A DNA stretch of 64,000 nucleotides. Source: Halorubrum aethiopicum. GTDB lineage: Archaea; Halobacteriota; Halobacteria; Halobacteriales; Haloferacaceae. The stretch covers positions 186,001 to 250,000 of the forward strand of contig NZ_LOAJ01000001.1 of the NCBI RefSeq assembly GCF_001542905.1, given 5' to 3'. The translations under genes were made by a program, and so were the position numbers. Under the pieces are notes generated by a model, which saw nothing but the letters and a program-made list of their open reading frames with translations, made no database searches and had not been told where the DNA came from. This document shows positions 9,085-50,982 of the stretch, in pieces. Numbering within the stretch: position 1 is the first letter of the stretch; each line of letters starts with the position of its first letter.

Positions 9085-9093
9085 CCGAGTCCG

Positions 9094-9936: not shown

Positions 9937-10000
9937 GTCCGCCCGTACGCGGCCGGGAGGTAAAAAGGCCGGCCGGCGGGCCGAGACGCCGATCCCGTCG

Positions 10001-19119: not shown

Positions 19120-19249
19120 GGGGATCCGGCGCGGCCGCGACCGATCGCCGCGCGGTCGGCCCGGCGTCCGCGACTCCCCTGCGACCGCGACCTCCCGGCG
19201 ACCGGCGGAAGCGCGGGACATATATGGACCGACGCCCAAGCCGATCCAC

Positions 19250-20673
19250 GTGACGATACCCGACCGGTTCCCCGCGGTCCTCGCCGCGGCGGCGATGGGC
19301 GTGTACCTCCTCGTCGTCGTCGGGGCGACGACCTCGCTCACCGACGCCGCAGCCGCCTGCGGCGGCTGGCCCGCCTGCGGCGGTGGCTACGCGCTCCCCG
19401 ACCAGCCGGCGGCCTGGATCGCGCTCGGCCACCGCGCGGCCGCCGCCGTCGTCGGGGGCTCGTCGTCGCCGCCGCGGCGCTGGCGTGGCTCGCCGACGCG
19501 GACCGTCGGGTCCGGGCCGCGCTCCTCCTCGCGCTCGCGCTGTTCCCGGCGCAGGCCGGGATCGGCGCGGTCGTCGCCCTCGGCGACACCTCGCTTTCGG
19601 TGCCGGGCGGAACGGTCCCGCTCGGGCTCACCCACCTCGCGCTCGGCGTGGCCATCTTCGCGAGCGTCCTCGCCGCGCTGGCGTGGTGGCTCGAGGCCGC
19701 GACCGGCGACGCGGACGACACTCCGACCGACTTCGAGCCGGGGACCGACGACCTGCCGCCGGTCGAGGACGCGCCCGAGCCGTCCGTGCCGACGGCGACG
19801 GTGCCGCGACTGCGCGCGACCGCGGCCGCGTACTTCCGGCTGATGAAGCCGCGGCTGATGTGGCTGCTCTGTCTCGTGGCCGCCGCCGCGATGGCGCTCG
19901 CCGGCGGTCCGGGGTTCACGCCGTACGCGGTCGCGGCGACGCTCGTCGGCGGGGCGCTCTCCATCGGCGCGTCGGGCACGTTCAACCACGTGTTCGAACG
20001 CGACGTCGACAGGCGGATGCGACGGACCAACGACCGGCCGCTGGCGACCGACCTGGTCCCGGTCCCGCACGCGCTCGCGTTCGGCGGGCTGTTGACGGCC
20101 GTCTCCCTCGGACTGTTCTGGAGCGTGAACGCCCTGACCGCCGCGCTCGGGCTAGTCGCGATCCTGTTCTACAGCGTCGTGTACACGCTCGTGTTGAAGC
20201 CGAACACGGTCCAGAACACCGTCCTCGGCGGTGCGGCGGGCGCGCTCCCGGCGCTCATCGGCTGGGCGGCGGTCACCGGCGAGATCGGCGGCGGCGGGCT
20301 GCTGCTCGCGGCCGTGATCTTCCTGTGGACGCCCGCGCACTTCTACAACCTCGCGCTGGCGTACAAGGAGGACTACGCCCGCGGCGGGTTCCCGATGATG
20401 CCCGTCGTCCGCGGCGAGACCGCCACCCGCCGACACATCCTCTGGTACCTCGGGGCGACGCTCGTCGCTGCGGTCGCGCTCGCGGCCGTCGCCGACCCGC
20501 TCGGCGCGCTGTACTCGCTCGTCGGCGTGGCGCTCGGCGCGGTCTTCCTCTGGACCGTCGTCCGACTCCACTACGAGCGGAGCGAGTCCGCGGCGTTCCG
20601 GGCGTTCCACGCGTCGAACGCGTACCTCGGACTGTTGCTGTTCGCCGTCGTCCTCGACGCGCTCGTCGTCTGA
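19250..20673 (+). pseudogene. ctaB: CtaA-like/CtaB fusion (heme o synthase), frameshifted
   Basis: Haloarchaeal heme o synthase has an N-terminal CtaA/Cox15-like region followed by the UbiA-type prenyltransferase. Here a GTG start at 19250 begins the CtaA-like part (VYLLVVVGATTSLTDAAAA), but the frame breaks in a run of five Gs at 19454-19458. From ctc 19459 onward the protein continues in another frame (LVVAAALAWLADADRRVRAA). One extra G would give an intact 474-residue protein. The CtaB domain (about 200-474, NHVFERDVDRRMRRTNDRPL and ALAYKEDYARGGFPMM) is intact. Either a real mutation or a homopolymer sequencing error. Confidence 0.8.
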
Positions 20674-36520: not shown

Positions 36521-38539
36521 TCAGACCTGTCCGACGGCGACGAAGCCGACGTAACAGGCCGCCACCAGCACGCCGGAGTGGAACAGCGCCCCGTACCTGC
36601 CGCGCGCGGCGGCCCCGGCGAACCACCCCGAGGCGAGCATCGTCGCCTGCGCGACCACGTAGAGGCGGAACCGCTCCAGTTCGGGGTGGACGAGGTCGGG
36701 ATCGACGGGGGCGTCGAGCGCGGCCGCGAGCGCGAGCAGGCGGTCCGTCTCCATCACGCCCGCGTTGATCGCGGCGACCACGCCGGCGACCGACAGCGCC
36801 GCGACCCAGCCGACCACGACGTACCGGCGCATCGCCCCGCGGAGCGCCCGCTTCTCGTGGGTCAGCCGGTCGACCTCGACCTGGAGCGTCTCGAACACCT
36901 CGTCGACGGTGCTCCCGGCGTTCAACGCCCCGGCGACCAGCCCGACGGTCCGGGCGGCCAGCGGCGTCCCGACGCGGTCGACGAACCGGTCGAGCGCCGC
37001 GGCGCGCACGTCGCTGCCGGCGGCCGACGCGTCGACCGCGGGGCCGTCGGCCGGAGAGTCTCGACCGCCGTCGTCGACGCCCGTGACGACGGCCGCCCCG
37101 CCGCTGCCGGTGGTCGTCAGCGAGAGGTTGAACGCGAGGTCGGCGACGTCGTCGCGCAACACGCCGAGATCCGTCTCGCGAGCCGCGGCCGCGACCGCCT
37201 CGGGGAACGGGCGGCCGACGGCGGCGTGCGCGGAGACCGCGTAGACGAGGTCGGCGACCCGGCGGTCCTTCGCGTCGTCGATCTGACCGCGCCGGGCGGC
37301 GACGAGCCCGACGGGGAGCGCGAACGCGACGTACGCCAAAAGCGCGACGTTCACGAGCGGATACCCGGCGTACGCGAGCCAGGCGGCCGCGGCCGCCGCG
37401 GGGACGGCCGCGACGGTCGACGCGCTCGCGGGGTTGGACGGCGCGGACGCGAGCACGGCGCGGATCCCCCTCGGCCGCCGGTAGCTCGTGCGGGAGTCGA
37501 CGGGGCGGAGCGCGCCGGTGGCGGCGATGCCGACGAGCCCGACCGCGAGCAGGAACCCGACGGAGGCGTAGACGGCGACCGCGCGCGGCGAGACGGCCCC
37601 GACCGGCGTGTCGACCAGCCGCGAGAGATCCGGCGCGAACACGCTCGTCACCGTGACGGCGACGACGAGCAGCGCCGGCAACACGAGCACCAGCACGAAC
37701 AGCTCCGCGATCGGTTTCAGGTATCGCCGCGCCCGCGTCCGGGCGTGCTCCTGTCGGTGCGCGAGGAGGCGACTCTCGGTCCGGAGGAACTCCGCGAGCG
37801 CCTCGTCGCCGGCGGAGACGTGCTGGCGGAACTTGAGCAGGAACGGTGCGAGCAGGTCCCGCGAGGGCGTGTCGCGGGCGACGCGGCGGAGCCCGGCGTC
37901 GAGGCTGCCCGTGAGCCGCGCCGCGTTGAGCGCCTTCCGGAACGAGACGGCCGTGCCGCCGTAGGCGTCGTTCTCCGCGACCTTCGCGATCAGCGTCCGG
38001 GCGTCGTCGCTCCCCGAGGAGAGCGCGTCGAGGTACCTGACCGCGCCGGGGAGCGTCCGCTCGATCCGGGTCCGGCGCGCGGAGACCAGCCACCGGAGGT
38101 AGAGCCCGCCGGCGCGGACCGTCGCTCGCTTGGCGAGGAGGCCCGCGACCGCCGACAGGGCGACCGCGAGCGCGGCGGGCGGCGGGACGGGAACGGGGAC
38201 CGGCACGCGTGCGCCGAGACCTGACGCGAGCGCGACGGACGCGCCGGGAGCGACCGCGACGGCGACGAGGAAGGCCGGAGCGACCGCCGCGAGACACGCG
38301 ACCCACGAGAGCGCGTACGTCCGCGCGAGGTACGTCTCGAAGCCCGTCGACGGGTCCGCCCCGCGGTAGCGCTGTCTGTCGACGTCGTGACGGCGGTCGT
38401 CGGCGTGGCGGGCGAACAGCGCGCCGAGGAGCCGGTCGAGCCGGGCGAACCGAGGGGGGCGGGGACGGTCGGCGGGGTCGTCGCGTCGGGCCCCGACCCC
38501 GCGTTCTCCGCGGGTCGACGCCCGCGTGCCGCCGCTCAC
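36521..38539 (-). CDS. pilC: type IV pilus inner-membrane platform protein (T2SSF / PilC family)
   Basis: The 672-residue polytopic protein has two T2SSF-type cytoplasmic domains, each with conserved Pro/Gly-rich turns (LRHVARDTPSRDLLAPFLLK-like and GTPLAARTVGLVAGALNAGS), and about nine transmembrane helices. It would anchor the pilus assembly ATPase. GTG 38539 overlaps the stop of the pilB remnant by 4 bp, so it is normally co-translated with pilB. Because pilB is interrupted upstream, its expression in this configuration may depend on the element's own transcripts. No pilin gene lies next to it. Confidence 0.86.
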   Translation of the reverse strand: MSGGTRASTRGERGVGARRDDPADRPRPPRFARLDRLLGALFARHADDRRHDVDRQRYRGADPSTGFETYLARTYALSWVACLAAVAPAFLVAVAVAPGASVALASGLGARVPVPVPVPPPAALAVALSAVAGLLAKRATVRAGGLYLRWLVSARRTRIERTLPGAVRYLDALSSGSDDARTLIAKVAENDAYGGTAVSFRKALNAARLTGSLDAGLRRVARDTPSRDLLAPFLLKFRQHVSAGDEALAEFLRTESRLLAHRQEHARTRARRYLKPIAELFVLVLVLPALLVVAVTVTSVFAPDLSRLVDTPVGAVSPRAVAVYASVGFLLAVGLVGIAATGALRPVDSRTSYRRPRGIRAVLASAPSNPASASTVAAVPAAAAAAWLAYAGYPLVNVALLAYVAFALPVGLVAARRGQIDDAKDRRVADLVYAVSAHAAVGRPFPEAVAAAARETDLGVLRDDVADLAFNLSLTTTGSGGAAVVTGVDDGGRDSPADGPAVDASAAGSDVRAAALDRFVDRVGTPLAARTVGLVAGALNAGSTVDEVFETLQVEVDRLTHEKRALRGAMRRYVVVGWVAALSVAGVVAAINAGVMETDRLLALAAALDAPVDPDLVHPELERFRLYVVAQATMLASGWFAGAAARGRYGALFHSGVLVAACYVGFVAVGQV

Positions 38540-39215
38540 GGCGCGCCCCCGGACCGGTCGTCGTCGCGCGGCGCGTCGTCGACGTGTGCGTCACCGGCGC
38601 GTGCGTTCCCGGGTCGGGCGTTCCCGTCCGCGTCGGTCGCGCGCCGAATCGACCGCGCGGCGCGCTCGACGGTCGCGGCCTCGTCGGCCCGGAGGTCGGC
38701 GAGGAACTCGAACAGTTCGTCGAAGTCGTCGACGCCGTCGCGGACGAGGTACTCCACGTAGCGGTGTTTGGCGGCGAACTCGGACTCGACCGCCTCGAGG
38801 TCGCGGTCGGTCCGCTCGGCGAGTCTCGCGAGCGCGTGGAGCCGCCGGCCGCCGTCGTACGAGCCCGCGGCGTCCGCGGTCGGCGCGCCGTCCATCCGGA
38901 ACCCGCCCGCGGGGTCGCACCACGCGACGGTGTTGTAGTGGACGCTCGTGTCGTCGCGCTCGATCACGCCGGCCCCGCCGTGTTTCGGGTCGCCGGTCCG
39001 GCTCCGCGTCGCGGCCGGGTCGAGCGCGTCGTACTCGGCGGGCGAGAGCGGCTCGACCGCCTGTGCGACGTAGCGGTCGCCGCCGACCTGCCGCGGGAAG
39101 ACCACGAGGTCGATCTCCCGGAGCAGGTACGGCGGGAGCCCGCGCTCTATCGCGCGGTTGACGAGCGTCCGCACGTCCGCGGCGTGGGTGGTCCCGACGA
39201 CGCCGTGGCCCGTGT
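38536..39215 (-). pseudogene. pilB: pilB C-terminal fragment, separated by the element
   Basis: Reading minus from 39213 the frame runs TGHGVVGTTHAADV, the His-box region of type II/IV secretion ATPases, then RTLVNRAIERGLPPYLLRE and to stop 38536 (224 residues after the junction). It has no start codon of its own near the junction; the first ATG is at 39174. Its other half lies 9.8 kb away at 49000-50979. Joined through gcccgtgt, the two give one intact ATPase. Confidence 0.93.
39208..39215 (+). other. attachment core, left copy (attL)
   Basis: gcccgtgt is the left edge of the element and at the same time encodes the TG of the pilB motif TGHG on the minus strand. The identical right copy is at 49027-49034. 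The sequence beyond the 8 bp diverges on both sides. Confidence 0.85.
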
Positions 39216-39221
39216 AGAGTG

Positions 39222-39244
39222 AATATCTATTAGTACCTGTAGTC
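39222..39244 (+). promoter_or_regulatory. promoter/operator of the integrase module
   Basis: An AT-rich box (aatatctatta) is followed by gtacctgtagtc (39233-39244), ending about 18 bp before ATG 39263. The same box-plus-12-mer recurs before the nuclease gene (41271-41282), so the two transcripts may share a regulator. Confidence 0.55.
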
Positions 39245-39262
39245 TAATCATTTGCCTGTATC

Positions 39263-39700
39263 ATGGGCGATCCTGAAACACAAGCGGCCATGACCTACCC
39301 CACCAAGCCCCAATATGAGGGATGGAAGGAGGATGCCGCCGACATGGATATGTCGGTTTCTGAGTGGATTCAGGCTATGGTCGAAGCCGGCCGAAAGAAG
39401 TTCGACGCCGGCGTTGAACCGGACGAAACGCTCCAAGAGGTACGGAAGCACCGCAACGATCTCAAGGAGGAACTGGACCACGCCCGCGAGCGTATCCAAG
39501 ACCTAGAAAACCAGCTTCACCACGGCGAACAAGCCGCAATTCGGGGGTTTGTCGAAGAAAACCCCGGCGCTACCTTTGAGGACATTACCCGCCACGTCAT
39601 TGAGACTGTTCCCGAACGGGTGAACCGTCATCTGGACGAACTCGAAGGTGACGTGTTGTACGTCGACGGCGAAGAATACTACCCACAGGAGGAGAGTTGA
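39263..39700 (+). CDS. element protein with coiled coil, first gene of integrase operon
   Basis: The 145-residue protein starts MGDPETQAAMTYPTKPQYEG. It has a short predicted helix-turn region (about 20-45, DMDMSVSEWIQAMVEAGRKK, resembling ribbon-helix-helix proteins), a coiled coil (about 55-87) and a compact C-terminus (about 90-145) with a winged-helix feel (TFEDITRHVIETVPERVNRH). It could be a DNA-binding regulator or directionality factor for the integrase operon; this is inferred from position only. The next gene starts 2 bp after the stop. Confidence 0.7.
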   Translation: MGDPETQAAMTYPTKPQYEGWKEDAADMDMSVSEWIQAMVEAGRKKFDAGVEPDETLQEVRKHRNDLKEELDHARERIQDLENQLHHGEQAAIRGFVEENPGATFEDITRHVIETVPERVNRHLDELEGDVLYVDGEEYYPQEES

Positions 39701-39702
39701 AT

Positions 39703-40152
39703 ATGTCCGAGTTACGGACGCCGCTGGACCGCCTCGGCGTATTCAAGGAACTTTCCGATGTTCCTAGCGCCCGCCGATTCCACCAATTCGCACCCTCGTA
39801 TGAGGGCAAAGATACGTGGATGGAATACCGGGCGACGGTAGAACTGTCGGACCGTATGGCCGAAGAGTGGACCCGGTTCGCTCGTCGGTGGAAAGAACAC
39901 ATGGACCACCAAGGACGGCACCACGCCTTAGCTCAGCCGGCGGATGTCGAAACATGGTCCGAAGACCTACTGAATCAATTCAGCCGGGATAGATCCTACC
40001 AGCATTGGAACGTGATTGAAGGGTTCTATGAGTGGCTGAAGTGGCATACGGACCACCCCCACACCTACAACCCGTTTCACATGGCCGTTTCCGAACCTGA
40101 CAGTAGCGCCCGTGAGATATGGACCCGCAAAATCGAGAAAGCCAATGACTGA
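39703..40152 (+). CDS. stand-alone SAM-like core-binding-domain protein (integrase accessory 1)
   Basis: The 149-residue protein resembles only the N-terminal core-binding domain of tyrosine recombinases. The helical block LSDRMAEEWTRFARRWKEHM, then GRHHALAQPADVETWSEDLL and HPHTYNPF, mirror the corresponding segments in the next gene's product. It has no catalytic residues. It follows the coiled-coil gene directly and overlaps the next gene by 8 bp. Together with that gene and the recombinase it forms a three-part integrase, like the Int/Orf2/Orf3 operon of the haloarchaeal virus SNJ2. Confidence 0.72.
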   Translation: MSELRTPLDRLGVFKELSDVPSARRFHQFAPSYEGKDTWMEYRATVELSDRMAEEWTRFARRWKEHMDHQGRHHALAQPADVETWSEDLLNQFSRDRSYQHWNVIEGFYEWLKWHTDHPHTYNPFHMAVSEPDSSAREIWTRKIEKAND

Positions 40153-40591
40153 TTCCGACAGAGAAGCACTAGCCGAAGCGTTCGACCGAGAACTAGACCC
40201 GCTCGCCAAATACGCGGAAACTTTCGAAGAGACTGGTGTAGACCCGTTTGAGGTATACGTCGATGAACGGCTCTCAAACAAGGACTTGTCAAAGTCGACT
40301 GTCGGAGAGTACCACCGGACCTTCGAGGAGTGGCGGGCGTTCATGGCTAGGGAAGGCCGCCATCCCGCTTGTCCGAACGAGAATCACATCAAGCGGTTCA
40401 TTGAGTACCTACAGGATGAACGCGAGAACGCCGCCGGAACGATCAAGAACCGACTCATGTACCTCAATGCTCCGTATCAGTATTGGCAGGATGATGCCGC
40501 CTTTCCCCACCCACAGGATTACAATCCGATTGACCTAGCGAAAGAAACCGTCGAACTGAACGGCGCTTCCCCAAAGGAACCCCCCGGTTGA
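40145..40591 (+). CDS. stand-alone SAM-like core-binding-domain protein (integrase accessory 2)
   Basis: The 148-residue protein has a clear phage-integrase N-terminal SAM-like domain (about 30-135): LSKSTVGEYHRTFEEWRAFM, GRHPACPNENHIKRFIEYL, LNAPYQYWQDD and FPHPQDYNP. In ordinary XerC/D-type enzymes this block is fused to the catalytic domain; here a stop codon separates it, with the recombinase start overlapping (TTGA). The reading frames differ, so this is not a simple nonsense mutation of one gene. Confidence 0.8.
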   Translation: MTDSDREALAEAFDRELDPLAKYAETFEETGVDPFEVYVDERLSNKDLSKSTVGEYHRTFEEWRAFMAREGRHPACPNENHIKRFIEYLQDERENAAGTIKNRLMYLNAPYQYWQDDAAFPHPQDYNPIDLAKETVELNGASPKEPPG

Positions 40592-41235
40592 CCGTCAAAG
40601 AGCTTCGGGACAAAATGGTCGATATTACGCATATCCGGGACCGGGCGATTGTCCTAATTCAGTTGAAACTCGGCCTTCGCGCAACCGAAGTGTGTAACCT
40701 GAAGCTCTCAGAAATCCACCTCGCCAATAGCGGCGTTCTGAACCACTACGACGAGATGGGGTCGGTCAGGGCTTTGAAAAACCGCGAAAATGCCGTGTAT
40801 ATCCCGCATGATCGGGAGGGTAACAAGTCACGCCGACCGCGTGTTCTCCCGCTCGATGATGAACTCCGCCACGCGCTTCTACAGTATCTACTAATCCGGC
40901 CAGACAACGGAGAACCGTGGCTGTTCCTCTCCAAGAACGGCCGGACTCAGCTCCGACAAAAGAACGTCAATGTGGTGTGGAAAGATGCTTTCCACCCTGA
41001 ATACGCCGAAACAGAAGATTTCCGAGCCGTTACGAGCCACTACGGTCGACACAGATTCACGACGTTCTGGCGTGTTGAAGAGGACTTGAACCGTGAACTA
41101 ATCAAGTATATGCGGGGCGATACCGCTGGTTCAGCTACACTCGATGACCGTGGGGCGATTGATGAATACATCCACACCTACTACGAGGACATTGAGCCGA
41201 TCTATCGGGAACGGATCTATAAGTTGGGGCTGTAG
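40588..41235 (+). CDS. int: tyrosine recombinase, catalytic domain only (integrase)
   Basis: The 215-residue protein holds the catalytic half of a tyrosine integrase: R31 in LGLRATEVCNLKL, the HxxR box H151-Y-G-R154 (SHYGRHRFTTFW), and the Tyr nucleophile in IDEYIHTYYEDI (Y194 or Y198/199). It starts with TTG at 40588, overlapping the upstream stop by 4 bp. It has no DNA-binding SAM-like N-terminus; that is supplied by the two upstream genes. It should integrate and excise the element at gcccgtgt in pilB. Confidence 0.9.
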   Translation: MTVKELRDKMVDITHIRDRAIVLIQLKLGLRATEVCNLKLSEIHLANSGVLNHYDEMGSVRALKNRENAVYIPHDREGNKSRRPRVLPLDDELRHALLQYLLIRPDNGEPWLFLSKNGRTQLRQKNVNVVWKDAFHPEYAETEDFRAVTSHYGRHRFTTFWRVEEDLNRELIKYMRGDTAGSATLDDRGAIDEYIHTYYEDIEPIYRERIYKLGL

Positions 41236-41262
41236 TCACCCCACATGTTATGGGTAAGAGAC

Positions 41263-41282
41263 GGATATTTGTACCTGTAGTC
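41263..41282 (+). promoter_or_regulatory. promoter/operator of the nuclease gene
   Basis: gatattt followed directly by gtacctgtagtc (41271-41282) repeats the signal seen at 39233-39244. ATG 41297 follows 14 bp later, giving the TATA-to-start spacing of a leaderless gene. Confidence 0.5.
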
Positions 41283-41296
41283 GACTATCTGACCTA

Positions 41297-42565
41297 ATGG
41301 GGATTGCTCGGTTCCTAATCAAAATATTTGGTGCCTTTTTGCTGATCGCGGTTATATTTGCTTTCTTCCCACTATTCGCCGCAATAGCGATCACGATAAA
41401 TTGGCATGGGGCGGCCGATAAATTGGACTTTTTACCGGGTATCGATAGTGAGGAAGCACTAAAATCATTCCTCGCCGGACTAGGGTATGGGTTAGTCCTT
41501 TGGTCTATTCTTATAGTCGTGGGAGGTGGTTCAGACTCTTCTCAGCCAAGCAATACCGCAGAACCAACTTCAAACACAAATCCCACACCTGACCCGTCAA
41601 CGGAACAGGCTCCGGTTCAGAACAATTCGACACAGACTGAAGGAGACAATGAAACCGAGCCATCATCCGATGATGAGATACAAGCCAATACAACCGTAGA
41701 GACATCTACGAACCAAACCACATCCGACGAAGAGGAGAATCAAGTGACAATTGTGGATGTCGTGGATGGGGATACGGTTGATATTCGCTTTGGAAATGGA
41801 ACTAGAGATACTGTACGTTTACTTGGGGTCGACACTCCAGAAGTGAACGGTCAGAACGATCCCGCCGAATTTGAGGGAGTACCAAACAACGCCAACGGCG
41901 AGCAATGTCTCGCAACAGAAGGTAGTGAGGCAAGTGACTATGCGGAATCTCGATTATCAGGTGAGACGGTTGAGCTTCAATTCGACTCTCAATCGTCTCG
42001 AAGGGGTTCGTATGGCCGATTATTAGCATACATTGTCGTTGATGGCTCAAATTTCAATTACCAACTTGTATCCGAAGGGTATGCTCGTGTCTACGATTCA
42101 GAATTTGAACAGTCAGATCGGTTCTACTCCGCTGAAAGCGAAGCACAGAGAAGTGAGATCGGAGTTTGGGAGTGTAGGAATGTAGAAGAGACTACTACAA
42201 GCGACACGTCAACTGGATCCTCAAGTAGCGGAGATAGTCTCGCCGTGGATTATGTCCATGCCGATGCCGAAGGTAATGATCATGAGAATCTGAATGATGA
42301 ATATGTTGTGTTTGAAAATACGGGAGGTTCCACGCTAGATATTGGCGGATGGACGGTTGAAGACGACGCAGACCACACCTATACAATTCCGAGTGGAACC
42401 GAGATCGATTCGGGACAAACAATCACGTTATATTCCGGGTCAGGGAGTGATACAGATTCAGAACTGTACTGGGGTAGTAGCTCTGCCATTTGGAATAACG
42501 GTGGAGATACTGTGATCGTTACCGACAGAAGTGGGAATACAATTATCGACTACTCTTATTCATAG
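41297..42565 (+). CDS. membrane-anchored micrococcal-type nuclease with lamin-tail domain
   Basis: The 422-residue protein has two N-terminal membrane helices (about 9-34 and 57-76) and a Ser/Thr/Asn/Gln-rich linker (about 78-148). A thermonuclease (SNase) domain follows (about 149-297) with DVVDGDTVDIRF, the catalytic Arg/Glu region VRLLGVDTPEV and SYGRLLAYI. A lamin-tail beta domain is at the C-terminus (about 312-420; EYVVFENTGGSTLDIGGW). The topology puts the nuclease outside the cell if the linker is extracytoplasmic. It stands alone and looks like cargo. GC content and codon use are far from host style. Confidence 0.86.
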   Translation: MGIARFLIKIFGAFLLIAVIFAFFPLFAAIAITINWHGAADKLDFLPGIDSEEALKSFLAGLGYGLVLWSILIVVGGGSDSSQPSNTAEPTSNTNPTPDPSTEQAPVQNNSTQTEGDNETEPSSDDEIQANTTVETSTNQTTSDEEENQVTIVDVVDGDTVDIRFGNGTRDTVRLLGVDTPEVNGQNDPAEFEGVPNNANGEQCLATEGSEASDYAESRLSGETVELQFDSQSSRRGSYGRLLAYIVVDGSNFNYQLVSEGYARVYDSEFEQSDRFYSAESEAQRSEIGVWECRNVEETTTSDTSTGSSSSGDSLAVDYVHADAEGNDHENLNDEYVVFENTGGSTLDIGGWTVEDDADHTYTIPSGTEIDSGQTITLYSGSGSDTDSELYWGSSSAIWNNGGDTVIVTDRSGNTIIDYSYS

Positions 42566-42775
42566 CGCGAACACAGATTTCCCTTCAAGTGAACAGGGTT
42601 CACAGGGTTTCACCCTACTTTATTTCTATATACAACTCTCCTCTTTCACTCTCACTATTCAATAGACATGAGAAAATGCTGTGAACCCTGTGATCCCCGG
42701 CAATAGTTGAAGAAAAATCCATTCAGAGACGCTACCCTTAACCAACATTGAGGGTCCAGAACCCGCCGGCGTTGG
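42566..42775. promoter_or_regulatory. non-coding gap with 13-bp inverted repeats
   Basis: About 210 bp between two convergent operons. acagggttcacag (42593-42605) is matched in inverted orientation by ctgtgaaccctgt (42680-42692), 74 bp apart. The first copy is also part of a partial tandem (cagggtt/cacagggttt). The DNA between them is AT-rich with a ctatatac tract. Candidates are a replication-related iteron pair, a regulator site or a terminator. No gene is visible. Confidence 0.6.
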
Positions 42776-42985
42776 TTAAGACTCTCCCAACTCCTCAAGA
42801 TCAATCGGTGGGTGATAGTATATCTCGCCCGTCTCTTGTCGCCGCTTCAAGTTACGGTCCTCATCGACGGTTTCCCATTCCCATGAGAACAGTCCAGCCA
42901 ACGTCACCGTGGGATATTCGTCCGCCGGGTCAGCGTCAAGCTCATCAAGTCGTTGTTTAATCTCGCGTTTACTCTTCCGTGTCAT
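42776..42985 (-). CDS. small RKSKREI-type element protein, paralog 3
   Basis: The 69-residue protein begins MTRKSKREIKQRLDELDADP, the same N-terminus as the two genes upstream (paralogs at 42969-43151 and 43160-43357). The rest differs: AGLFSWEWETVDEDRNLKRR ends in a short acidic tail. It is the last gene of the leftward operon and overlaps the neighbouring gene by 17 bp. Function unknown; the shared motif may be a DNA- or protein-binding helix. Confidence 0.72.
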   Translation of the reverse strand: MTRKSKREIKQRLDELDADPADEYPTVTLAGLFSWEWETVDEDRNLKRRQETGEIYYHPPIDLEELGES

Positions 42986-43151
42986 TGTCGGGTCGTAGCT
43001 GTTCGGCCCATGCCTCCCGAACCAACCGTTCGGGCGGATCGGGATACTTGTCTGAAAAATGCTGTTCAATCACACCGACGCCGTCAACCAAGTCGCCGTC
43101 GTCTAACTCTTCGATCTTCGATTCGATCTCACGTTTTGATTTGCGTGGCAT
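42969..43151 (-). CDS. small RKSKREI-type element protein, paralog 2
   Basis: The 60-residue protein begins MPRKSKREIESKIEELDDGD and ends in an unrelated, charged segment (IEQHFSDKYPDPPERLVREA). Its N-terminus is nearly the same as the flanking paralogs, so this is a tandem family with a conserved first 17 or so residues and variable C-termini. ATG 43151 is placed at the shared start. Confidence 0.72.
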   Translation of the reverse strand: MPRKSKREIESKIEELDDGDLVDGVGVIEQHFSDKYPDPPERLVREAWAEQLRPDNDTEE

Positions 43152-43159
43152 AATCAGGT

Positions 43160-43357
43160 TTATAGGTCCAGCGTCGCCCGCGCGGTGGGGGAAAGGTGTT
43201 CTTCCGGAGAGTCCAGTATCGCCCGCTCTTGTGTGGTTAATCGACCACCGTAAGCGGCCTTCAAGTCGGCCCATAGATAGGCGTGAATCGATACCTGTTC
43301 GCCGGAATCCAGATCGTCTAATGCCGCTTCGATCTCCCGTCTACTTTTGCGGGCCAT
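43160..43357 (-). CDS. small RKSRREI-type element protein, paralog 1
   Basis: The 65-residue protein begins MARKSRREIEAALDDLDSGE and continues with VSIHAYLWADLKAAYGGRLT and LSPTARATLDL. It is the first of three tandem paralogs. Its start overlaps the end of the upstream coiled-coil gene (43341-43607), so all four are one operon. No known family recognised. Confidence 0.74.
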   Translation of the reverse strand: MARKSRREIEAALDDLDSGEQVSIHAYLWADLKAAYGGRLTTQERAILDSPEEHLSPTARATLDL

Positions 43358-43607
43358 CGTTTGTATGCTCCTCAAGTTGGTCCAGCCGTTCGGACAATTC
43401 TTCGAGGTCTTTGTCGGCCAGATACTTCCGCCGGGTCGACAGCGCGGAGATAATCACACGTAAGTATTTCAGTCGGATTCGTTCCTTCTCCGGCGAACGG
43501 ATTCGACCCTCACCAAGTGATTTGTATCGCGCCTGTTCGACTACGTCGCTTAACTCCGCTAAGGCGTCGTCGCGTTGAGATTGTATCTTATCGGATTCGT
43601 CTGTCAT
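43341..43607 (-). CDS. helical/coiled-coil element protein
   Basis: The 88-residue protein is almost wholly helical: MTDESDKIQSQRDDALAELS, then a basic segment (EKERIRLKYLRVIISALSTR) and a coiled coil at the C-terminus (LEELSERLDQLEEH). It resembles small haloarchaeal plasmid/provirus proteins of unknown role. It leads the paralog array and is preceded by about 190 bp without a clear gene. Confidence 0.68.
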   Translation of the reverse strand: MTDESDKIQSQRDDALAELSDVVEQARYKSLGEGRIRSPEKERIRLKYLRVIISALSTRRKYLADKDLEELSERLDQLEEHTNDGPQK

Positions 43608-43794
43608 AGGTATTTACTCGGCTGATTTTTGCTGATTGCCGTCTCACAATGTGTCGCTTAGATTCCGCTTACGCTCGACAATTGATTCCCGGTCAAAACC
43701 GCCACCGGGGTACTGAAAAAATAAAATCCGCGGCCGACTGATACCGATACCATGCCTGTAGGTCCCTCGCCTTCCGGGTCATCGGGATACTGAT
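43608..43794. other. gap between two leftward element genes
   Basis: About 190 bp. Only tiny frames are possible, for example a 29-codon minus-strand frame starting with MTRKARDLQAW near 43778, which I do not trust. A tract of As and Ts near 43718 (gaaaaaataaaa) could hold the promoter of the downstream paralog operon. Confidence 0.35.
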
Positions 43795-44160
43795 TCAATA
43801 GCTAATGTCGTACTCCTGTTTGAGATCCCCCACCCGGTTCTGTTGCTTCCGAACGGTTCCAAGCGATCGAAGCGACTCCGCCTCCGCTTCATGTCCATGC
43901 TCAATCAACCACGCATAGACCCGCTGAATGTCACCCTTACTGGACGTTCGGAATTCATCGTGTTTCGGATCGAATTCCGGGTGTTGGCGGATTAGCCGAA
44001 GCTGTTCCTGAATTGAATCCGTGCGTCGTACCTCGCTCGCGGCGTCATCTCTCCCGCGTTCCTTGAGCTTTTCATAGCCCCGTTTCACTTTGCCACCGTT
44101 CGGCGTCTTTGCGTTATCCGTCTCTGGATCGAAGCCTCTGATAGACTCTGAGCTACTCAT
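43795..44160 (-). CDS. element protein with charged helical sequence
   Basis: The 121-residue protein (MSSSESIRGFDPETDNAKTP) is hydrophilic. It contains two similar internal segments, KTPNGGKVKRGYEKLKERGR and TSSKGDIQRVYAWLIEHGHE, suggesting an internal duplication. Function unknown. Its start overlaps the end of the next upstream gene by 4 bp. Confidence 0.66.
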   Translation of the reverse strand: MSSSESIRGFDPETDNAKTPNGGKVKRGYEKLKERGRDDAASEVRRTDSIQEQLRLIRQHPEFDPKHDEFRTSSKGDIQRVYAWLIEHGHEAEAESLRSLGTVRKQQNRVGDLKQEYDISY

Positions 44161-44489
44161 AGATTGTCCTCCAATTTCTGTCGGACGCTCCGCCAACTCC
44201 GGGAGTGGAGGCTGTTTTTCAGCGTCTCAAGTGCCGCCTTCTTATCCTCAAGCTCTTCGGCGTGTTCCGGCGTGCGACCCTTCATGAGGTCAATACGCCG
44301 CTGTAAAGTGTCGATCTCGGCTTGGATCTCCGAGTTGCTGTTCAGCGTATCTAAGTCGTACTCCTCCTTGAGAGTGTCAACAACCACCGCCGGAGACGTG
44401 TCGCCGTCAGAATTTGCTTTCTCGCGTTCTAAGGCGTCCTGAAACTCTTTCCGCTTCTGTTCAATCTCGTCAGTAGTGTTCGTACTCAT
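44157..44489 (-). CDS. coiled-coil element protein
   Basis: The 110-residue protein is highly charged and helical with a predicted coiled coil (about 54-95, EIDTLQRRIDLMKGRTPEHA). No family recognised. It is translationally linked to the gene downstream (ATGA-type overlap at 44157-44160). Confidence 0.66.
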   Translation of the reverse strand: MSTNTTDEIEQKRKEFQDALEREKANSDGDTSPAVVVDTLKEEYDLDTLNSNSEIQAEIDTLQRRIDLMKGRTPEHAEELEDKKAALETLKNSLHSRSWRSVRQKLEDNL

Positions 44490-44542
44490 GGTTGAATTTC
44501 TAACTGCTAAGTCCTCGCCCCGATGGGTCATCGGCCGAGTGT

Positions 44543-44725
44543 CTAACAGCCTTCGCGGGCTTCCTGACAGATCACGCCGACCAACGCGGGGAGGTCGATA
44601 ATCTGAATCAAGCCGATCGTCAGAACAGCCACGGTCCCGTTCGCATGATCGGCGAAGGCTAATATCGCTACCAAAACGACCGCCACCGTGTTCCGATCAA
44701 CTAACTCGGATAGTGTGACGTTCAT
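44543..44725 (-). CDS. small two-helix membrane protein of the element
   Basis: The 60-residue protein (MNVTLSELVDRNTVAVVLVA) has two hydrophobic segments (about 13-26 and 31-53) and one short loop. Its ATG overlaps the stop of the large primase gene by 4 bp, which supports real translation. Size and topology are reminiscent of small viral/plasmid membrane proteins; function unknown. Confidence 0.6.
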   Translation of the reverse strand: MNVTLSELVDRNTVAVVLVAILAFADHANGTVAVLTIGLIQIIDLPALVGVICQEAREGC

Positions 44726-47271
44726 TGGTACTCTCCTAATCCTGTTCCGTGGGATTCCGCATTGTCGTCTGACGGCTCCGGTTCTGGACGGGGCGCGTCG
44801 TTAGTCAACTCAAGGCCGACATAACACCGGGTCCGGCTTCCATCAACGGTCCGCTGTCGCTGGACCACGTCGCCGCGTTTGGTTAGCTCGGCCGTGAACT
44901 TTTGGAGTGATTCACGTTCTAAGCCATTGTTTCGAGAGAACCGAAGATATGAGTCGTATGCCCCAACGGTTCCCCCGCTTGTGGTTCGCTTCGGAACGCT
45001 CCCACCGTCGTCGGTGTTCGCATATCGCTCGATGAATTGCTCAATACTGTTCCCATACCGCTCCCACTTCTGACGATTCTCGAAGGGGTACGGCTCATTA
45101 GTGAATTTCCCCTGTTCCATCAATCGGACATAACCGTCTATTGCCCAATTCAGGATCCCCGGAAGTTCGCTTATCAACTTCTCTGTGAGCTGTGGATCTT
45201 GGTCCTCGCGGGGAACGCTTTCAGGGAAGAACACGGTGAGCCATCGATTCCAGAACCCGTCGTCATCAACGTCGCGGTCCGGCGCACGGTTGGCCGCGAA
45301 GATATGCTTCGTCGTCGGTGAAAACTTGAACACCGGCTTTTGCTTTCGCTCGGCGTCCAAGGCGTCGCCGGCGATTATCTCTTTGACCTTCCCCGTGTTT
45401 TCAATCGTTGAGTTATCCAGATCGTTCCGGATATTGATCGCCGTGTTCACAAGCCGCGCCGGTCCCCAACGCTCATTAGCGAGGTACTGGACGCTTGTGC
45501 TACTTGTGGCGGTACTGTCGTCGCCGCCGAATAATGCTCGAACCACGTCTAAGAACACGCTCTTCCCGGCGTCAGTCGGCCCGAACAGGATTAGGGCCTT
45601 CTTCCGCGGAAGATCCCAATGGTGTAGGCAAAACCCAACATACTCCTGTAGGAGCGGGATCGATTCGGGTTCGACCACGTCACCAAGAAACGCCTTCCAT
45701 TGGGGACAATCCGCTTCGGGGTCGTATTCCGTTTCAAGCCGCCACCGAACGCGATCGTCCGGCTCAATCGGCCGACAGTCGCGCGTCTCCAAGTCCAGAA
45801 GGCCGCTCTTGGTAGCAATGGTTCCGGGCGGGCCGCCACCGAAAGCCGTTTCATCGGCGCGTGAGCGGGCTTTCAATTGGTCCAGCACTTCCGTCCGTAA
45901 CCGACTCCTGTAGTGATCGCCAAACTCGGAATCCAGCCACCGCCGGACAAATTCCTCACCGTGGCTATGCCAGATCCCAGACGTATCGCACCAGTACCAT
46001 TCTTCGCGTTTTGACAGCCACGCGATCCGTTCATCCGGAATCTCTCGAAGCGCGACGTTCTTTAACTCCTGTAAGGAGAGGTCGGCATACGGATCCCGGT
46101 CGCGTTCTCTCACGGTCCAGTCGCCGGCGTTCTTGAGGAAACTATCTCCTCCCGCTACCTCATTAACGGCCATCGTTTCGGCTGTCGTGAACCGGTCCGG
46201 ATCCTCGAACCGTTTGACAAGCTCGGCGGCGTCGTACTCTTCGGTCGACTGGACTTTGACGACTTGCCCCTGTTCATCAAACCACGTTGAATCAATCGCG
46301 TTCTCGAAGGGTGTTTCGCGGGTCTGACCGCCGGGGGCAACGCCCGACGATCCACTCTTCGGCGGCGTCCAGCCGCCTTCTTTCGCTTTATGGATTAGTG
46401 TGCCAAGTGTGACGCCCGCGCCTTCCGAAGCGTCCGACCAAATCCATTCAATGCTACTCTCGGCGGCGTCATCGAATTTGCCGCCACGTTTCGACCACTT
46501 CTCGAACAGTCGCTTTCCCCTACTTCCGTCGTCAAAGTCGTGAACAGCAAACCCGATCCGTATCCAGTCGGTATGAGGTAGATCGGGGTCGACGTGGGAT
46601 AGTGCCTCTTCAATGTCTTCGTCGGTAAGGTACTCCTCGCGGTCGCCGGCGCGGCTGGATTGCGCTTCTGTTCCCAACGACGGGGCGCGATCGTGAACCG
46701 ACTTGTAGGCGTCAAACAGCCACGGCGCGGGATTGATGGATTCGATCGTTCTCCCGCTTAGGCTATGCGGCTCGCCCGTAAACACCGTGAACTTATTCTG
46801 TAGGATGTCAACGCCTTCGTGTTCTCCAAGTTGGCCATCGGTCCACCAGTCGGGTATCTCGCGACCTTCCACCGGGATATGTAACCCCGTTCCGCTGGTT
46901 GAATATTCGACGTATGTTCCCTCGAATCTGTCCAGATCGGGAACCCAACTCTTGAGGCTTCCATCATCCGCAATCCCGCCGTCAATGTCGATACAGGCAT
47001 AACGCCCGGTTTCATAGTCGTCGTTTCCGGCGGCCATGATGTAACCAATACCCCAACTCTCGCGGGCTTGTGCGGCGTCTCTCGCCGCTTCAAACGTATG
47101 CCATGTCTCCGGGTTGGACCAACTAATGTTGAAGTCTCCCTTCCAATGCGGCCGCTTAGGTGTCTCACCAGAAGCGTCCCACATGAGCCATTGATCGCGG
47201 GCCTTCAATTCGTCTGGAATTGGTCCGTACTGTTCAACCGAATCCGCCGGGGTTGAATCCGCTCGGCTCAT
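44722..47271 (-). CDS. primase-polymerase / D5-like superfamily 3 helicase (replication protein)
   Basis: The 849-residue protein combines an N-terminal primase-polymerase domain with a C-terminal D5/P4-type helicase. The primase part has catalytic acids D95-I-D97 in YACIDIDGG and SGTGLH (126-131). The helicase part has Walker A near 565 (LFGPTDAGKSVFLDVVRALF), ENTGKVKEIIAGDALDAERK and FAANRAPDRDVDDDGFWNRW. Such proteins initiate replication of plasmids and viruses. It is transcribed leftward and ends inside the next small gene. It is the best evidence that the element can replicate by itself. Confidence 0.9.
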   Translation of the reverse strand: MSRADSTPADSVEQYGPIPDELKARDQWLMWDASGETPKRPHWKGDFNISWSNPETWHTFEAARDAAQARESWGIGYIMAAGNDDYETGRYACIDIDGGIADDGSLKSWVPDLDRFEGTYVEYSTSGTGLHIPVEGREIPDWWTDGQLGEHEGVDILQNKFTVFTGEPHSLSGRTIESINPAPWLFDAYKSVHDRAPSLGTEAQSSRAGDREEYLTDEDIEEALSHVDPDLPHTDWIRIGFAVHDFDDGSRGKRLFEKWSKRGGKFDDAAESSIEWIWSDASEGAGVTLGTLIHKAKEGGWTPPKSGSSGVAPGGQTRETPFENAIDSTWFDEQGQVVKVQSTEEYDAAELVKRFEDPDRFTTAETMAVNEVAGGDSFLKNAGDWTVRERDRDPYADLSLQELKNVALREIPDERIAWLSKREEWYWCDTSGIWHSHGEEFVRRWLDSEFGDHYRSRLRTEVLDQLKARSRADETAFGGGPPGTIATKSGLLDLETRDCRPIEPDDRVRWRLETEYDPEADCPQWKAFLGDVVEPESIPLLQEYVGFCLHHWDLPRKKALILFGPTDAGKSVFLDVVRALFGGDDSTATSSTSVQYLANERWGPARLVNTAINIRNDLDNSTIENTGKVKEIIAGDALDAERKQKPVFKFSPTTKHIFAANRAPDRDVDDDGFWNRWLTVFFPESVPREDQDPQLTEKLISELPGILNWAIDGYVRLMEQGKFTNEPYPFENRQKWERYGNSIEQFIERYANTDDGGSVPKRTTSGGTVGAYDSYLRFSRNNGLERESLQKFTAELTKRGDVVQRQRTVDGSRTRCYVGLELTNDAPRPEPEPSDDNAESHGTGLGEYQ

Positions 47272-47462
47272 CGGGCCACCTCCTCACGGACTCGAAGCTC
47301 ACAGACACCACACCGGTAATCCGTCAATTCGTCCGGCGTTGACTCAAGCGTTGGCCGGTCGCAATCGGGGCAATTGAATCCAGCGTAACGACTTTCAACC
47401 TTCGGTTCGCTTACTGATTTAGACGGAACCCCACAACCGTCTATGCTCTGTCTTCGGCTCAC
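47268..47462 (-). CDS. small zinc-ribbon protein
   Basis: The 64-residue protein has two CxxC pairs (FNCPDCDRP and YRCGVCELR), forming a zinc ribbon about 20 residues long. It overlaps the primase gene by 4 bp and the upstream gene by 4 bp, so it is the middle gene of a replication operon. A nucleic-acid-binding accessory role is likely but not shown. Confidence 0.78.
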   Translation of the reverse strand: MSRRQSIDGCGVPSKSVSEPKVESRYAGFNCPDCDRPTLESTPDELTDYRCGVCELRVREEVAR

Positions 47463-47668
47463 CCTTCCGTCACCTCTTGAATATCTAGTCGACCGTCTCT
47501 CACACCGTACTGGATACTATCAGCGTTTTCAACGCCAAGCCTATCCAGATCCGTCTTTCCAAGGAACAGACAAACACCAAGCGTCTCTCCGTCTGCCGTA
47601 GTGTTGACTGTCGCTTGTGCGTGTTCGGTCCGCTCGATACTTCTCTCTCGCGTAGTAGCATTATTCAT
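47459..47668 (-). CDS. small beta-rich protein, possible AbrB-like DNA binder
   Basis: The 69-residue protein (MNNATTRERSIERTEHAQAT) has a C-terminal part (about 40-66, KTDLDRLGVENADSIQYGVR) with the beta pattern and spacing of SpoVT/AbrB swapped-hairpin domains. That match is weak. It starts the replication operon, where a copy-control or autoregulatory protein would be expected. ATG 47668. Confidence 0.6.
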   Translation of the reverse strand: MNNATTRERSIERTEHAQATVNTTADGETLGVCLFLGKTDLDRLGVENADSIQYGVRDGRLDIQEVTEG

Positions 47669-47782
47669 TATCTAGCGGTAGAATTGCTAAATGCGCGGGG
47701 CCGATCCCGCGTCTTTGTAGTAACGCCGTCAAACGGGTGGTCACTCTCACACAACCACACCCGGACGGCGTTCTCTGATACG
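47669..47782. other. short gap with a possible tiny minus-strand gene
   Basis: Directly after the RHH gene a TTG-started minus-strand frame of about 42 codons (LRSDVSENAVRVWLCESDHP, ending near 47674) is open and overlaps that gene. It would be part of the same operon, but the start codon is weak and I do not recognise the product. Otherwise nothing seen. Confidence 0.3.
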
Positions 47783-47905
47783 TCACTCCTCAAGGAGCCG
47801 ATCCACTACGTCGTTAAACGCTTCTCCGGGTTCCTGCTTCCGTGAATTGAGTCGTTGCCAATTCTCCCGACTAATCTTAATCGTGGTATGTTGTTTCGTA
47901 CTCAT
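47783..47905 (-). CDS. tiny ribbon-helix-helix-like protein (antitoxin-like)
   Basis: A 40-codon gene reads MSTKQHTTIKISRENWQRLN, then SRKQEPGEAFNDVVDRLLEE. The pattern 'TTIK(I/L)S.E..QRL..RK...E.F.DVV.RLL' is that of small haloarchaeal VapB/CopG-like ribbon-helix-helix proteins, which bind DNA as dimers. It would lie upstream of the replication operon and could regulate it. No VapC-type PIN toxin gene is next to it. ATG 47905; stop TGA 47783-47785. Confidence 0.75.
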   Translation of the reverse strand: MSTKQHTTIKISRENWQRLNSRKQEPGEAFNDVVDRLLEE

Positions 47906-48313
47906 TATGTTTTTAATCGTGATTATTCAAATACCAATTCTACAGAACCAACTTGGACGCTATTCCCCACAGCGGGTTACACGCCCTCATCAATACCAGC
48001 GTATTTTTTACAAAATGCCGAGGGACGCTGGTCGGACTGGTTGTTTTGACGAAATCAAATACCTACTTCCCGGATTCATGGTGGGTGGCTCCACCATCGG
48101 TTGTAGGTCCTCCCGGCCGCCCAAAACCACGCACCTCCGAAAAACGCGCGTGATCATCGTCACGTCCGACTCCCACGCTGGCGGGGGAGAGGCTTCCATG
48201 CGGGGTCGGTGATTCGGTGGGTCCGCCCCGTTCGCCCCGATCCTCCGGGACTTGTCGTGACTGATCATACTAGCGACAGCATTATAAACTGGTATCTTCT
48301 AACAAAATATCGT
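47906..48313. other. 400-bp structured intergenic region, candidate origin
   Basis: This gap lies between the leftward replication operon and a rightward gene. It has AT-rich ends and a GC-rich structured middle. The clearest structure is a nested pair: ACCTAC at 48061-48066 pairs with GTAGGT at 48103-48108, enclosing a 7-bp perfect stem with a 6-nt loop (atggtgg 48078-48084 and ccaccat 48091-48097). A second possible hairpin (ctccc...gggag) lies near 48170-48190. Position next to the primase-helicase operon fits an origin or a small regulatory RNA; neither is shown. Confidence 0.5.
48281..48288 (+). promoter_or_regulatory. TATA box of the right-end element gene
   Basis: attataaa lies 26-33 bp upstream of ATG 48314, ideal spacing for a leaderless archaeal transcript. 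Confidence 0.6.
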
Positions 48314-49003
48314 ATGAGTGATTATCCGTCTTCGCTGTTGACCAGCGGACAGCGGGAGTACCTCAAGGGAGAGAAAGAGGCATCCAACGAGAGCCAGATG
48401 AAGAAGCGAATCCGTGAACGTGTTTACGCCGGCTTTCGAGAGGACGGGGGAATTTTGCTTGATGAACTCTCGATTGAAGAACGGCGTCGGATGTTCCGAC
48501 ATTGGGAAGAAAGGGAGGACGAACGACACCGCGATGGCATTCCTCTCCGTGAGGACGATGAGTTGATGAACACCTTCGAGAAATCCACGTTAGAAATCAA
48601 TCTCGGGAGTCTTCTGGCGTTCATTTACTTTGGCGTTGAGGAAACGAACCTCTCTGATTTTGAAGAACTCTTAGAAACCGGGATTCAGCTTGGGGCACAA
48701 AAATACGGTTACAACGTGAGTAAGCTGAACTTCGAGGTGGAATTCGAGGAAGCACTAACACCCGCAGATACGTTTGAGTACATGAAAAACGAGGAAGTGT
48801 CGCTTGAAGAGTTAAAGGAGCATATTCTGATGAGTCACCTCAACACCATAGCACAAGCCGACAGGTTCGATCTTGAGGAATTGCCCGAACGGTTCAGAGA
48901 GTTCATAGTTGAAGAGAATAAGTCGTTTCAAGAGACACAGGAATGGGTAGAGTCAAGCGGATTTCGCGAGGTACTTAAGAAACTGGAAGAACGCCGGGAC
49001 TAG
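48314..49003 (+). CDS. haloarchaeal accessory protein (SLLTSGQREYLKGE family)
   Basis: The 229-residue protein begins MSDYPSSLLTSGQREYLKGE, an N-terminal signature I recall on many haloarchaeal accessory and provirus proteins (a conserved 'LL...QREYL.G' start followed by IRERV and a hydrophobic strand). The rest is acidic and helical, with no membrane segment. Function unknown; a regulator or immunity-like role for the element is a guess. Its stop overlaps the truncated pilB stop on the opposite strand by 4 bp, exactly at the right end of the element. Confidence 0.72.
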   Translation: MSDYPSSLLTSGQREYLKGEKEASNESQMKKRIRERVYAGFREDGGILLDELSIEERRRMFRHWEEREDERHRDGIPLREDDELMNTFEKSTLEINLGSLLAFIYFGVEETNLSDFEELLETGIQLGAQKYGYNVSKLNFEVEFEEALTPADTFEYMKNEEVSLEELKEHILMSHLNTIAQADRFDLEELPERFREFIVEENKSFQETQEWVESSGFREVLKKLEERRD

Positions 49004-49011
49004 TATACTAG
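49000..49011. repeat. 12-bp perfect palindrome at right end
   Basis: ctagtatactag sits 15 bp inside the right attachment core and holds the stop codons of two genes. Its position near the core suggests an integrase or excisionase arm site; there is no copy at the left end. Confidence 0.5.
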
Positions 49012-49026
49012 CATTTCTTCAGAATA

Positions 49027-49034
49027 GCCCGTGT
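49027..49034 (+). other. attachment core, right copy (attR)
   Basis: gcccgtgt is identical to the left core at 39208-39215. In the minus frame it encodes TG of NTG; the base before it (a) and after it (t) differ from the left copy. Confidence 0.85.
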
Positions 49035-50982
49035 TCACCGTCTCCGCGAACGTCTCGAAGCTGGCGGGCGTGTTGATCTCGGCTATCACCTCGACGTCGG
49101 GGTTGAGGTAGTTGGCCTCGGTCATCAGCGTCGCCATGCTCACCGCCTTGTACGCGTTCTCGTGGTCGCGGGTCGTCAGCGCCACGCCGGTCTCGTGGGG
49201 GAGCCGCACCTCGCGGGAGCCCTCGTCGATGGAGACGGGCCGGTCGTCGAACGGGATGAAGGGCATGTGGGCGTTCATCAGCGTCGTCTTGCCCGCCCCC
49301 GTCGGCCCCGCGAAGAGGACGACGCCGCGGTGTTCGTACAGCAGCCACAGGAGCGTGACGAGCTCGGTCGAGAGCGCGCCGTGGGCGACCAGGTCGACGG
49401 GCGTGAGCGGGTCGGCCGCCTGCTTCCGGATCGAGACGTGCGGACCGTCCGCGGAGATGACCGGGAGCGCGATCGCACACCGGATCGTCTCGGAGACGCC
49501 GGGAACGTCGAGGTTGACCTTCGCGGAGGGCGTCGAGGCGTTCAGCTCCACGCCGTCGCGGGCGGCCAGTCGCGTGACGACGTCGACGAACCGCGACTCG
49601 TCGGTGAACGCGAGGTTCGTCGGGATCCGGCCGCCGCCGGCGAGCGGGTCGAGTCCGCGCCGGTCGGTCGCGGCAGCGTTCCCGCCGGCCGCCGCGTCAC
49701 CGCCGGCCACCGTGTCACCGCCGGCCGCGTCGGTATCGATCGTCGCGTCGCTCTCCGCGGCCGCGTGGCCGTCGACCGCCGCGCCGCTCCCGGCGGCCAC
49801 GTCATCCCCGGCCGCCGCGTCGCTCCCGCTCTCCGCTCCAGCCAACACCGCGGGCCGGGGAACGACCTTCACGCGCTCGCCGACGCGGTTTGCCTCGACG
49901 TCCTCCAGGTGGGGGTCCCGGATCGGGACGGTGAGGACGCCCTCGCCGACGAAGTCGCGGAGCACGTAGTAGACGAGGTCGTCGAGGCGGTCGGCGGCGT
50001 ACGCCGGGTCGACGCTCGGAGCGGCGAGGTCCCGGTCGGCGAGGGCGCTCCGGACGCCCTCGCGGGCGGTCGCGACCCACCCCCGCGGCGAGGAGCCGCC
50101 GGCGAGCCGGCGCGAGAGGTACCGGCGGGCGTGCTCGGCGACGAAGGCGGTGCGGTCGTCGATCAGCCGGTCGACAGGGGTTTCCCAGATCCGGCGCTCG
50201 CAGTCGCAGATGAGCGCCTCGTCGCCGGGGAGGAGGTCGGGCTCCAGCGCGGCGTACTTCGTCTCGAAGGCATCCGAGCCGAGCAGCCGCTCGCGGTAGA
50301 TCACCACGTCGACGGCGAAGCCGGCGAACTCGACGGCGTACCGGGCGAGCCGCTCGCCGGCGACGCGCTCGACGTACTCGGCGTCGGCGTCGATACCGGT
50401 CTCGAGCGGGGCGAACGCGTCCGTGTGGACGACGAGTTCGCGATCGTCGCCGACGTCGGCGACCGCGATCCGGCCGTCGAGCGCGACGGGCGTGAGGTCG
50501 CCGAACAGCCGCAGCTCACACAGCGCGTGGTGGTCGATCCGGCGGCGGGCGGCCGCGGTCGCCGAGAGGAGGCGGTCGAGCACGCGCTCGTACTTCGGCT
50601 CGAAGCCCGCCTCCGCCCGCTCGACCGCGCCGGCGCGGGTGAGCGGTCGCCGGCCGCGGACGGCCGAGAAGTGCTCTCTGACCCGCCCGAGCGCGCGCTC
50701 GTCGGCGGGCGAGAGGGGCGGTTCGCGCACGTCGTAGCCGAACCGGCCGCCGTCGCGCTCGCGGATCGTCGCGACGACGCCGGGCGCGGACTCGTACTGC
50801 GCGCGGACGTCGGGTGCGTACCAGGCTTCGGGGTCGTCGGGCGGGACCGGGGCGGGAACCGAGGCGTCGTCGTCGCCGGAGCCGCCGCCGATCCGCAGGG
50901 TGGGAGTCGTCACGTCTCTGCGCTCGTCTGCTCGACCGGAGTTCGACCATCGGATATAACGATTCTCTTTTCCTGACATGTC

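Follow-up and report, generated by a model that had tools for sequence, protein, structure and literature searches.

Genes and boundaries of the element

We analysed a window of 64,000 nucleotides (the whole stretch of Halorubrum DNA read here), in which the module under study is encoded on the forward strand. ORF0 (39263-39700, 145 aa) has a central coiled coil and an HTH-like C-terminus and gives weak Pfam and PHROG matches only; it immediately precedes A on the same strand and was absent from the initial annotation. It is followed by A (39703-40152, 149 aa, ATG start), B (40145-40591, 148 aa, ATG start) and C (40588-41235, 215 aa, TTG start), with an overlap of 8 bp between A and B and of 4 bp (TTGA) between B and C. 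Re-reading of the ORF list and of the translations confirmed the sizes and overlaps first given for these three ORFs. As the base composition at the three codon positions is of the coding type in A, B and C, and homologues of each are found in other haloarchaea with about 36-75% identity, they are not chance ORFs.

In the Pfam search, B, the N-terminal (core-binding) half of an integrase, matched Phage_int_SAM_1 with an E-value of 3.8e-8, and C, the catalytic half, matched Phage_integrase (PF00589) above the cut-off, with an E-value of 1.6e-12. A alone showed no significant Pfam match. The domain composition proposed at the outset, two SAM-like proteins and a catalytic one, was therefore recovered by Pfam for B and C, while A had no match of its own. 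In an alignment of 21 sequences, the residues R31, K80, H151-x-x-R154 and Y194 of C, which we take from the family pattern to be the catalytic ones, are invariant, and C thereby presents the R-K-HxxR-Y set of tyrosine recombinases. In the same alignment Glu34 is present in at least 90% of the relatives, and Gly177, which occupies the His/Trp-III position, is invariant.

The module belongs to an element of 9,819 bp, extending from 39208 to 49034, which carries the 8-bp core GCCCGTGT at its left end (attL, 39208-39215) and, identically, at its right end (attR, 49027-49034). The element cuts a gene of the reverse strand for a type II/IV secretion ATPase (T2SSE; PF00437, E 7e-14), which adjoins a gene for a T2SSF-type membrane protein. 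The N-terminal part of the ATPase gene is found at 49027-50979 and the C-terminal part at 38536-39215; upon joining of the two flanks, the frame continues across the junction as a single open ATPase frame of 876 codons, and intact homologues in the genus span this junction. The exact empty site is present in the close relative G290, whose uninterrupted ATPase gene contains the predicted attB around the core, and about 40 genomes of the genus carry the gene unbroken. No tRNA gene was found in the window. The target is thus not a tRNA gene, as had been pointed out, and the joined frame together with the PF00437 match identifies it as the T2SSE ATPase gene. The locus is best read as the integration module (ORF0, A and a single-chain tyrosine integrase) of a 9.8-kb integrative element of a haloarchaeon, Halorubrum.

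The same ATPase site is occupied by the module in Halorubrum alkaliphilum (L099) and in a Haloarcula MAG (L105), and an ATPase fragment ends at this site in G370. In two further loci, L048 and L109, the module is inserted in the same ATPase gene at a different site. In none of these loci is the target a tRNA gene, and the secretion-ATPase gene seems to be a recurrent integration target. The second site, shared by L048 and L109 and also by G331 and G406, corresponds to residues ~570-590 of the joined protein, and this stretch is repeated at both ends. In Haladaptatus salinisoli (L112, the same locus as L044), A and the integrase alone lie between two ATPase pieces, at ~8893-10651; this 1.8-kb, cargo-free element is either minimal or deletion-derived. 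In the element of the window, the cargo next to int (41297-42565) is a predicted staphylococcal-nuclease and lamin-tail protein (SNase + LTD). A primase/D5-type helicase (PriCT_2, D5_N, DUF5906) is encoded at 44722-47271 and has relatives in the elements L039, L041 and L042; its presence suggests that the element is able to replicate as a plasmid or as a virus-like circle.

Fold and gene linkage of protein A

Comparison of profiles with hhalign showed A and B to be homologous over ~100 residues, with a probability of 98.3 and an E-value of 1.1e-14. Taken singly, the homologues of A gave weak matches, to Phage_int_SAM_4 in 7 of 26 (best E 3e-4) and to Phage_int_SAM_1 in 6 of 26. A search of PDB sequences with the profile of A returned no significant match, so a fold search was needed. 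The AlphaFold2 model of A has a pLDDT of 91 and a pTM of 0.85. With this model, Foldseek retrieved Cre with a probability of up to 0.99, at modest E-values (best 0.09). In the VIA-align comparison, the model superposed on XerD with a Z-score of 10.3 and an rmsd of 2.0 Å over 86 residues; the core-binding domains of Brujita Int (Z 10.3), lambda Int (10.2) and XerA (9.1) and the MrpR/YopR structure (8bj6, Z 8.7) also aligned, while unrelated entries scored far lower (Z 2).

The core-binding fold is thus recovered for A by hhalign, by Foldseek and by VIA-align of the predicted structure, and the initial view that two paralogous SAM-like proteins precede the catalytic domain is upheld by the A-B profile homology together with the fold. 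On the profile match and the model, A is a genuine paralogue of the integrase core-binding domain that lacks a catalytic domain.

In the order-level search, A was present in 49 of 392 genomes. Its linkage was assessed in 55 informative order-level loci, those matching Int strongly (E up to 1e-70), by comparing positions by hand; in 52 of them A precedes the integrase. In the A-less loci G158, G269 and G004, the Int match starts late, which corresponds to an N-terminally truncated or diverged integrase. A fused A-Int chain was considered for the 635-codon frame of G158 and was rejected, the upstream part having no match to the A profile. The search of plasmids gave no match to A and three weak or partial matches to Int; among the phages no close Int was found, and neither C nor its alignment retrieved a relative from the viral contigs, the sequences aligned for A being too divergent for a scan by pattern. 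A is conserved in haloarchaea, and the widespread association of a tyrosine integrase with a separately encoded duplicate of its own core-binding half is apparently undescribed.

The frame break between B and C

The integrase had been regarded as made of three separate chains. This view finds no support, since B and C are a single chain wherever the junction could be read in a relative: they form one continuous frame in 28/28 order-level relatives in which the junction was read and the same ORF in 33/33 named loci with a full module. The split is accordingly conserved in 0/28 and 0/33, respectively, and the fused frame of the relatives has about 360-440 codons. In comparison with all relatives, the integrase frame of the window is lost by one base at a C-run (40580-40585, forward strand); this run is located in the interdomain linker and is the sole G/C run of at least 6 in the 9.8-kb element. 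In many relatives the linker sequence is KEPPR with L or I as the next residue, encoded in an open frame with mixed codons. The arrangement of the core-binding and catalytic domains on one chain is that of all intact relatives, and is interrupted in the window by the frame loss, which is probably an error.

For the intact relative L099, AlphaFold2 modelling (mean pLDDT 88) places the core-binding domain at residues 22-136 and the catalytic domain at 152-360, with the break falling in the linker that joins them, which is modelled with less confidence. As the break lies in this linker, the B and C halves resemble tidy separate proteins. The intact relatives have a Cre/XerA/Tn1549-Int-like fold, and share with the XerA/XerD/Cre-like recombinases (PF02899 + PF00589) the one-chain layout and the R-K-HxxR-Y residues; they differ from them by the Gly at the His/Trp-III position and by the extra gene for a core-binding paralogue before the integrase. 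A split of the SSV type (suicidal), in which integration occurs at an att site inside the int gene, was ruled out, both cores (39208 and 49027) lying outside int. Decayed copies of the module were observed in Natrinema gari (L131, 9384-10426), where A is shortened and B and C are out of frame, and in G159, which has a stop plus a frame change.

Using about 450 kb of the genome, of which ~119 kb aligned to G290 (90% identity) and 63 kb to G115, both of the same genus, we scanned these DNA alignments for single-base insertions or deletions at which the codon-position pattern changes phase; a tblastn comparison based on long ORFs had been misled by ORFs on the antisense strand of this GC-rich DNA. 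Three conserved host genes of the assembly are broken by the loss of one base at a G/C run. Named from their protein sequences, they presumably encode EtfA (C-run at genome position 164221), a rhodanese/metallo-beta-lactamase-fold hydrolase (G/C-run at genome position 180188) and the COX15/CtaB heme O synthase (window 19244-20670; G-run at ~19459, genome 205459). Each of them occupies two frames here and one frame in nearly all other holders among the 29 genus genomes searched; in G299 the heme O synthase is also in two frames, with the break elsewhere in the gene. G/C runs of at least 7 occur at 26.7 per Mb in this assembly compared to 40.5 in G290 and 47.5 in G115, all of these being small counts. 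The simplest common cause is probably a systematic under-calling of G/C runs.

The same one-base loss in three conserved host genes makes a sequencing or assembly error the likeliest origin of the B/C split, and we consider this origin probable. The break could instead be real and recent, slippage at the C-run having inactivated the integrase after insertion and thereby fixed the element in its place within the ATPase gene. Slippage occurs naturally at C-runs, modules such as those of L131 and G159 have decayed, and A, B and C are intact otherwise, as a recent event would leave them; like lesions in three unrelated conserved host genes, however, point to a systematic error, and we hold a real mutation to be unlikely.

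The two remaining explanations give the split a function, and even taken together they are very improbable. Three working polypeptides, with B and C coupled in translation at TTGA and joined in trans, would be in line with the 8- and 4-bp ORF overlaps, with the position of the split in a flexible interdomain linker, with the retention of all catalytic residues in C and with the overlap of the C start codon and the B stop. In some tyrosine recombinases, moreover, the catalytic domain stays partly active on its own. Nevertheless, the split is seen in no relative, coincides with an error-prone run and leaves C with a TTG start, so that there is very little to recommend an integrase assembled in this way. 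Programmed -1 frameshifting at CCC CCC, which would yield a short B plus a full-length Int, agrees with the two consecutive CCC codons that precede the stop; it is hardly credible given that the C-run is unconserved, that the relatives encode the KEPPR linker in a single open frame of mixed codons and that an A stands ahead of the run, making it a poor -1 slippery site.

A single-chain integrase with a frame loss at the C-run, accompanied by A as a core-binding partner, is thus the best explanation of the locus overall, and one that we hold with good confidence. On this reading the locus drops out as a misleading case of a split integrase, and the probable under-calling of G/C runs calls for caution with the other broken genes of this assembly.

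Comparison with SNJ2 and possible roles of A and ORF0

The SNJ2 Int/Orf2/Orf3 operon had been named as a relative of the module, a relation that the comparison does not bear out. In SNJ2, Orf2 is a coiled-coil protein and Orf3 is MarR-like, and they modulate a single-chain integrase (PMC8371274). In SNJ2-type integrases, Gly or Ala takes the place of Glu/Asp-I, and Ala or Val that of His/Trp-III (PMC7547991). This signature is absent from C, which keeps Glu34 and has Gly177 at the His/Trp-III position, whereas the aligned integrases of HHPV4 and HRPV9 show the other active-site signature. BLASTP against the SNJ2-type integrase of HHPV4 gave no significant similarity (E ~1 or worse). Because the Glu is present, Gly stands at the His/Trp-III position and no significant similarity to the HHPV4 integrase was found, the integrase is, as judged from its sequence, not of the SNJ2 type. 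On the published descriptions and the active-site signature, Orf2 and Orf3 were also rejected as homologues of the SAM-like pair; compared by description, Orf2 is a coiled coil, whereas A is a core-binding protein. The two systems also differ in their targets, tRNA-Met for SNJ2 and the T2SSE ATPase gene for the element described here. They are alike in being haloarchaeal elements in which the integrase gene is preceded by two small ones (PMC8371274, PMC13107129, PMC7547991), one of which encodes a small HTH-type protein, and the order ORF0-A-Int resembles orf3-orf2-int. By analogy, A or ORF0 may have helper roles similar to those of the SNJ2 accessory proteins.

The intact integrase (B + C) would recombine attP and attB over the 8-bp core by the standard R-K-HxxR-Y chemistry. 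Its core-binding fold suggests that A binds DNA, and A likely does so at the att sites or at an operator beside Int, or else pairs with Int. Homology and gene linkage suggest that it would thereby control integration, excision or int expression, acting on the sites of Int or on the operon promoter, and A is a candidate recombination subunit, directionality factor or repressor.

In the haloarchaeal integrase family considered here, A might be indispensable to the recombination complex as a subunit without catalytic activity. Mixed synapses would then form, in which the core-binding domain of A fills some of the half-sites or acts as a clamp on the DNA across from Int, and A would set the choice of site or the direction. 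We regard this as doubtful; if A does take part in recombination, it would represent a mode of integration control without description in the literature surveyed. Somewhat more plausible, and still tentative, is a role of A as a recombinase-derived transcriptional repressor acting outside the recombination complex, in the manner of MrpR (YopR) of phage SPbeta, a repressor of recombinase fold without recombinase activity (PMC10516654). The N-terminal domain of this DNA-binding protein superposes on the model of A, as given above for 8bj6; MrpR, however, retains a full-length recombinase fold, while A is a core-binding half encoded beside an Int of the active type. The 12-mer GTACCTGTAGTC, found exactly at 39233-39244 and at 41271-41282, is consistent with a repressor, since the first of these sites lies in the promoter region of the operon, just upstream of ORF0, and the second in that of the next gene after int, which encodes the nuclease. 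Against it, A is linked to Int rather than to any wider regulon, and ORF0 could equally bind the 12-mer, which is a possible operator for either protein.

ORF0 is itself likely to be a DNA-binding regulator, and a candidate regulator or directionality factor of the module. The RdfS-like wHTH directionality factors (PMC11963761) are likewise small DNA-binding proteins encoded with a tyrosine integrase, of which ORF0 is a possible analogue; A differs from them in not being a wHTH protein. Homologues of ORF0 immediately precede A in 12 of the 20 order-level loci and in about half of the named loci.
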